Positions 3,156 to 3,617 of a stretch of 64,000 nucleotides of DNA are shown here, in pieces. The notes beneath the pieces were generated by a model. That model did not search any database and was not told the origin of the DNA. It saw only the letters and a program-made list of their open reading frames with translations. The number at the start of each line of letters is the position of its first letter. Within the stretch, counting starts at the first letter, position 1. The translations under genes were made by a program, and so were the position numbers. Source of the DNA: Abyssibacter profundi (GTDB taxonomy: Bacteria > Pseudomonadota > Gammaproteobacteria > Nevskiales > OUC007); NCBI RefSeq assembly GCF_003151135.1, contig NZ_QEQK01000001.1, positions 1 to 64,000 of the forward strand. The letters are read 5' to 3'.

Positions 3156-3617
3156 ATGCCGCGATTGTTTCGACACTGGACTGCATCACCCTTCGGCCAC
3201 ACGTCGTCGCTGCTGCTGGCCGCTTGCATCGCGTGCACGCCTTGCCTCTTGTTCGCTGAGAGTGTTGCCGATTCGTCGGTCGAGCGTCCTCCAGCCGAAG
3301 CCGAAGCCGAAGCCGAAGCCGACACCGACACCGACACCGACACCGACACCGACACCGACACCGACACCGACACCGACACCGACACCGACACCGACACCGA
3401 CACCGACACCGACACCGACACCGACACCGACACCGACACCGACACCGACTGCAACGATGACTCCGAACGCCCCTGCGATTCGAAGCCGCGCCCACCGCCC
3501 CGCTTTCAGTCGCCGGTGCTCAGAGGTGATTTTGGCGAGATGACCGGTAACCCCATGGCCCGCTTCGGGTTCGGTCATTGCCACGAACTAGAGAATGGCG
3601 AGCTCTTCTGTCACTAG
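3156..3617 (+). CDS. Secreted hypothetical protein with a long Asp-Thr dipeptide repeat
   Basis: I do not recognise a family. The preferred start at ATG 3156 gives a signal-peptide-like N-terminus (basic MPRLFRHW, then a hydrophobic [18 protein letters not shown] and a cleavage-like site). This is followed by Ala-Glu repeats, 43 residues of alternating Asp-Thr, and a cysteine-containing C-terminal tail. The repeat is encoded by a perfect hexanucleotide array, so unit gains or losses would keep the frame. The acidic tract may be a flexible spacer or cation-binding stretch on an exported protein. An upstream TTG at 3075 and ATG at 3090 are alternative starts. No clear ribosome binding site is visible. 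It may not be a functional gene. Confidence 0.5.
3321..3449 (+). repeat. Hexanucleotide array (GACACC), 21.5 perfect units
   Basis: 129 bases of uninterrupted GACACC repeats, preceded by four GCCGAA units from 3294. On the plus strand in the gene's frame this reads Asp-Thr. On the minus strand the same array creates long artificial open frames of Val-Ser, Cys-Arg or Val-Gly. The lack of any point change in 21.5 units suggests recent expansion by slippage. Confidence 0.97.

Follow-up and report, generated by a model that had tools for sequence, protein, structure and literature searches.

Within the first 64,000 nucleotides of contig NZ_QEQK01000001.1 of Abyssibacter profundi (the whole stretch that was analysed, hereafter the window), a long and perfect hexanucleotide repeat lies inside an open reading frame (ORF) at positions 3156-3617, whose 153-aa translation holds a 43-residue run of alternating Asp and Thr. 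Our preferred reading, to which we give an even chance, is that of a lineage-specific small ORF that may encode a real, non-conserved exported protein with an acidic linker expanded by slippage, lying in a segment that appears to have been replaced in this lineage. Taken as a whole, the locus gives the impression of an unremarkable repeat expansion within recently scrambled DNA, and nothing in it points to a system of a new kind. Its features, in order of position, are the following:

2471-3082, plus strand: gene for a YitT-family membrane protein, which forms the conserved left edge of the putatively replaced segment (PF02588, E = 4.4e-29; 80% identity in two congeners)
3156-3617, plus strand: orphan ORF of 153 aa with a hydrophobic N-terminus, a Glu-Ala run, an Asp-Thr run and a Cys-containing tail (translation, hydrophobicity test, homologue searches)
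3156-3260, plus strand: putative export signal, a basic start followed by a hydrophobic stretch, with LAAC at residues 21-24 (hydrophobicity test, by eye)
3293-3322, plus strand: five AGCCGA units in a short array, translated as Glu-Ala (repeat scan)
3319-3449, plus strand: perfect period-6 run, with 21 GACACC units plus GAC at 3321-3449, 43 Asp/Thr residues (repeat scan)
3450-3617, plus strand: 55-aa tail with four Cys, plus the stop codon, for which the tail searches gave no convincing homologue
3640-3888, minus strand: probable remnant of an FAD/NAD(P) oxidoreductase gene, retaining some 80 C-terminal residues from a total of about 550 (Pfam 24.7 versus a cut-off of 26.1 bits)
3866-4084, plus strand: C-terminal fragment of a Zur/Fur-like regulator, a probable remnant (3866-4066 aligns with residues 97-163 of a frame of 168 residues found in a relative)
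4333-4406, minus strand: tRNA gene, right boundary of the putatively replaced segment, assigned to Met because its anticodon, determined by eye, is CAT

The repeat comprises 21 GACACC units at 3321-3446 followed by GAC up to position 3449, all of them perfect, and the full period-6 run extends over 131 bases. A sequence-only reading of this DNA had described a flawless GACACC repeat coding for 43 Asp/Thr residues, and positions 3321-3449 are indeed perfect and in frame. The longest period-6 run elsewhere in the window (outside 3281-3460) measures 17 bases and the maximum in 100 simulations of the window with a first-order Markov model was 19; the 131-base run is far above chance. Immediately 5′ of the Asp-Thr tract, the AGCCGA units encode Glu-Ala in the ORF frame, in which array and tract share the same alternation of acidic and small residues. 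Folding predictions gave no structured single strand in the tract, with 199 of 200 shuffles folding at least as well (z = +2.1).

Tracts of this hexamer are rare, but their kind is not unique. At least four consecutive GACACC units occur in 3/61 genomes among relatives, A. profundi included, as compared to 2/61 for a four-unit control with the pattern reversed, and neither of two congeners (G001, G002) carries a four-unit tract. Ten consecutive units were present in a single one of the 398 genomes of a phylum sample, namely A. profundi; the reversed ten-unit control was likewise found in one of 398, a different genome, indicating that long repeats of other hexamers occur as well. As for E. coli K12, the excerpted text of one report gives only three hexanucleotide repeats (PMC7015867). 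Within the literature searched, consisting mostly of titles and the beginnings of abstracts, we found neither a GACACC repeat nor an Asp-Thr bacterial protein of this type. Within A. profundi itself, a FimV-like gene on contig 8 includes an acidic low-complexity stretch in which GACACC occurs four times in the Asp-Thr frame. Unlike the ORF at 3156-3617, however, this FimV/HubP-like protein is 1163 aa long with a FimV core and C-terminal domains, and its repeat is short and passes into imperfect units, in contrast to the perfect 21.5-unit tract.

The main rival to a protein-coding reading is a non-coding microsatellite in decaying DNA, whose tract would have expanded free of selection and whose ORF would be a by-product of the stop-free repeat; we regard this as a serious possibility, if short of an even one. 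ORFs of 132-235 aa cross the tract in five of the six frames, that of 3156-3617 included, as such a microsatellite would have it, and ORF length is thus no evidence for a gene. Long repeats without stops leave ORFs in almost all frames, and genes called on the strength of such a repeat need outside evidence. Codon usage likewise leans toward a microsatellite: the non-repeat codons in frame 0 score 0.9 bits per 100 codons, which falls below the 5th percentile (9.5; median 38.8) of 253 reference windows of 100 codons drawn from the long, unannotated ORFs of the window that we took as genes. Over the combined flanks outside the tract, in contrast, frame 0 is clearly the best of the forward frames (0.9 versus -45 and -48 bits) and is open on both sides, which argues for coding, as does the change from Glu-Ala to Asp-Thr, which is conservative in this frame as judged by eye. 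When only the N-terminal part is considered, frame 0 (-3.3 bits) is outscored by one antisense frame (2.0 bits). Neither a sigma-70-like promoter site nor a terminator-like site was detected at 2900-4400, where shuffles yield on average 0.4 and 1.3 such sites, respectively, so that both results weigh little; a Shine-Dalgarno-like sequence was not evident by eye 5′ of position 3156.

The N-terminus argues against a mere by-product. Exported bacterial proteins are recognized by signal peptidase I and lipobox motif rules, i.e. a basic start, a hydrophobic stretch and a cleavage site or lipobox. None of 121 spurious ORFs in the window matches the candidate signal in hydrophobicity; among stop-free nucleotide shuffles, 18 of 2043 do, and among ORFs of at least 250 aa, 3 of 33. 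The hydrophobic stretch is thus better than chance, albeit some selection among frames has to be allowed for since several of them are open through the tract. The putative signal could be cleaved by signal peptidase I or, at LAAC, serve as a lipobox. On this sequence evidence, translation and export of the ORF appear about evenly balanced. Of the secreted protein with a signal peptide that had been proposed, the hydrophobic N-terminus thus stands as unlikely to arise by chance, while an expressed gene is a weak part of the proposal, given the codon score and the outcome of the homologue searches. The Cys-containing tail proposed along with it is borne out, with four of the seven Cys lying 3′ of the tract; the ORF further comprises 38 Asp/Glu and 9 Lys/Arg residues.

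In the sets searched, no convincing homologue of the ORF was found outside its own genome. The whole ORF matched 15 of 61 genomes among relatives at E ≤ 0.01, its own included, but these are low-complexity matches to the acidic stretch, and the tail alone finds only itself at low E. When the order was searched, the tail had matches at E ≤ 0.1 in 15 of 85 genomes, again counting its own, with the best other match at E = 0.034, and we took these weak matches as chance; against the class, it retrieved only itself at E ≤ 0.001 (1 of 369 genomes). The two other genomes of the genus (G001, G002) gave no match to the ORF, a plasmid search with the whole ORF no convincing homologue, Pfam and PDB none for the tail, and PHROGs no match for the ORF at E ≤ 0.01. 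Whole-ORF matches in Pfam were compositional (best E = 0.0028, 16.5 bits versus a cut-off of 30.9), and NCBIfam returned solely Ser-Asp-repeat adhesins, likewise compositional and far below cut-off. A viral contig match to the tail was rejected as it covers 10 residues only. The sequence-only reading, which could name no protein family, is in line with the results for order, class, plasmids and PHROGs; the homologues with other repeat lengths that it proposed to look for did not turn up in these sets. The outcome in order and class fits a microsatellite free of selection.

The genomic context points to a segment particular to this lineage. DNA similarity to the congeners ends at position 3082 (G002) or 3090 (G001) and that to genome G003 at 3075, and similarity to G002 resumes at 4328, with the tRNA and ychF stretches being 81 and 82% identical, respectively. 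At 4327-4407, G001 matches through a different tRNA-like stretch, located upstream of its yitT, and its contig stops at base 3998, short of any corresponding tRNA on that side. In the congeners, yitT is followed by a hydrolase-like gene of 353 aa (G002) or 335 aa (G001), the two being 88% identical to each other; it matches Abhydrolase_1, Esterase_PHB and others in Pfam, all below curated cut-offs, and by eye alone would encode a lipoprotein. The best match to this hydrolase in A. profundi, one of three, is 36% identical and encoded elsewhere in the genome; an orthologue was thus not found. Between its tRNA and ychF, G002 further carries an acyltransferase-like gene, named by eye. In A. profundi, the place after yitT is taken by the ORF at 3156-3617 together with the C-terminal fragments of the Zur-like regulator and the FAD oxidoreductase, which lie on opposite strands.

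The Zur-like fragment matches Pfam FUR weakly (E = 0.091), while the full-length relative in genome G005 reaches E = 9.6e-38 with the Zur model, albeit below cut-off (129.5 versus 167 bits); used as a query, the fragment retrieved nothing else at E ≤ 0.001 from its own genome and nothing from G001-G003. Because the oxidoreductase and Zur-like pieces look like remnants, we read the segment as lineage-specific and partly decayed. From these fragments and the different content of the congeners, we infer that the segment from yitT to tRNA-Met/ychF was replaced or scrambled in this lineage. Both the adjoining fragments and the different gene after yitT in the congeners are what a tract stranded among decaying genes would be expected to show. 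Descent of the ORF from the hydrolase-like gene of the congeners was considered and dropped, given that DNA similarity stops at 3082/3090 and resumes only at 4328 in G002.

If the preferred reading of a small exported protein holds, slipped-strand mispairing would have expanded a Glu-Ala/Asp-Thr acidic low-complexity linker, and the product may be periplasmic, lipid-anchored or secreted. Since the unit is six bases long, gain or loss of a unit would lengthen or shorten the linker by two residues and would not switch the gene off; what role such a linker might have, we can only infer. The claim that copy-number changes keep the frame is thus confirmed as far as the six-base unit and its in-frame position within the ORF are concerned. 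In phase-variable simple-sequence contingency loci, a change in repeat units shifts the frame or alters a promoter. The six-base unit inside the ORF does neither. Were the protein expressed and the tract variable, it would represent a new small exported protein that grows a linker by slippage, and could be used to measure rates of hexamer slippage.

The number of units deserves separate consideration, as the tract may be real and its copy number wrong, either because a longer array was collapsed or because its size was set by read length; we think this rather unlikely. The assembly consists of 47 contigs, and an overlap check on the ends of contigs 1-25 revealed 19 exact overlaps of 98-147 bases. 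Sixteen of them form four two-by-two junctions (136, 134, 119 and 98 bases), the pattern of unresolved repeats, whereas three are one-to-one (147, 128 and 124 bases). This suggests that the assembly could barely resolve repeats about as long as the tract and probably broke at them, for which reason the 21.5 units are provisional. Against a miscounted array, the contig runs through the tract. Additionally, we had considered the 131 bases as the floor of a k=127 assembly and dropped this explanation, as none of the 19 overlaps was 127 bases long.

Least probable of the readings is a length-variable surface protein, in which copy-number changes would adjust how far an exposed acidic stalk extends and be selected for diversity. 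Equally improbable is its extension to a young species-specific exported protein whose Asp-Thr stalk would be an in-frame length-variable locus diversifying between cells within one marine population, much as prophage Asp-Thr tracts range from 8 to 19 units. The closest precedent comes from a viral contig collection with 29 stretches of at least eight GACACC units, of which 12 give Asp-Thr when translated in their longest open frame, 11 Thr-Pro and six something else; at least three records (L183, L190, L204) show the same protein stretch. One prophage protein family accounts for 8 of the 29 stretches (L187, L189, L191, L194, L198, L202, L203 and L205, all viral contigs) and carries 8, 9, 9, 12, 13, 16, 19 and 19 units, counts that also rest on assemblies, between flanks (up to 600 bases) that are 83-97% identical upstream and 86-99% downstream. 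This shows that GACACC tracts in this family differ in length without loss of frame; it does not imply a function, and probably represents an in-frame length polymorphism in a phage structural region.

The prophage family, which matches PHROG 28439, shares with the ORF at 3156-3617 both the GACACC hexamer and the Asp-Thr frame, and its range of 8-19 units lends some credit to a variable surface stalk. Unlike the ORF, however, its members have no hydrophobic start as judged by eye and probably lie in a phage structural gene cluster, so that the precedent concerns virions rather than cell surfaces; the ORF, having no PHROG match at E ≤ 0.01, gives no sign of belonging to this family. A relative in Serratia phage vB_SspM_BZS1 (QNO00903.1) has an Asp/Thr run, and its gene lies between those for the major capsid and head-tail joining proteins. 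A second precedent is offered by the staphylococcal Sdr/Clf (MSCRAMM) adhesins, in which, similar to the ORF, an acidic dipeptide repeat arises from in-frame short repeats; in staphylococcal surface proteins, according to the excerpted text of PMC3324548, Ser-Asp repeats change copy number reversibly and in frame. The ClfB match to the ORF (E = 4.4e-8) is nevertheless compositional, with 31.5 bits versus a cut-off of 999, the Sdr/Clf matches do not extend beyond the repeat and its immediate borders (at most residues 39-114), and a protein of 153 aa leaves no room for the adhesin domain, placing the ORF outside this group. For the ORF, surface exposure, an anchor and variation would all have to be assumed, and across four Haemophilus influenzae genomes, the part of PMC2651432 consulted describes coding hexanucleotide repeats as conserved, or changed in sequence and not in length, and as not considered phase-variable, which argues against selected length variation.

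To the left of yitT, a 141-aa protein at 1846-2271 (minus strand) without a match in Pfam, NCBIfam or PADLOC adjoins yitT in both congeners, too (64 and 74% identity). Near the contig start, two ORFs at 114-1194 (plus strand) resemble CBASS anti-phage defence. The first is a CBASS-like cyclase that lacks its N-terminal half, with its C-terminal part matching PADLOC from model position 165 onward (E = 1.1e-48) and the NCBIfam cGAS model below cut-off, and the second a CBASS-like E2-like protein (3.6e-32).
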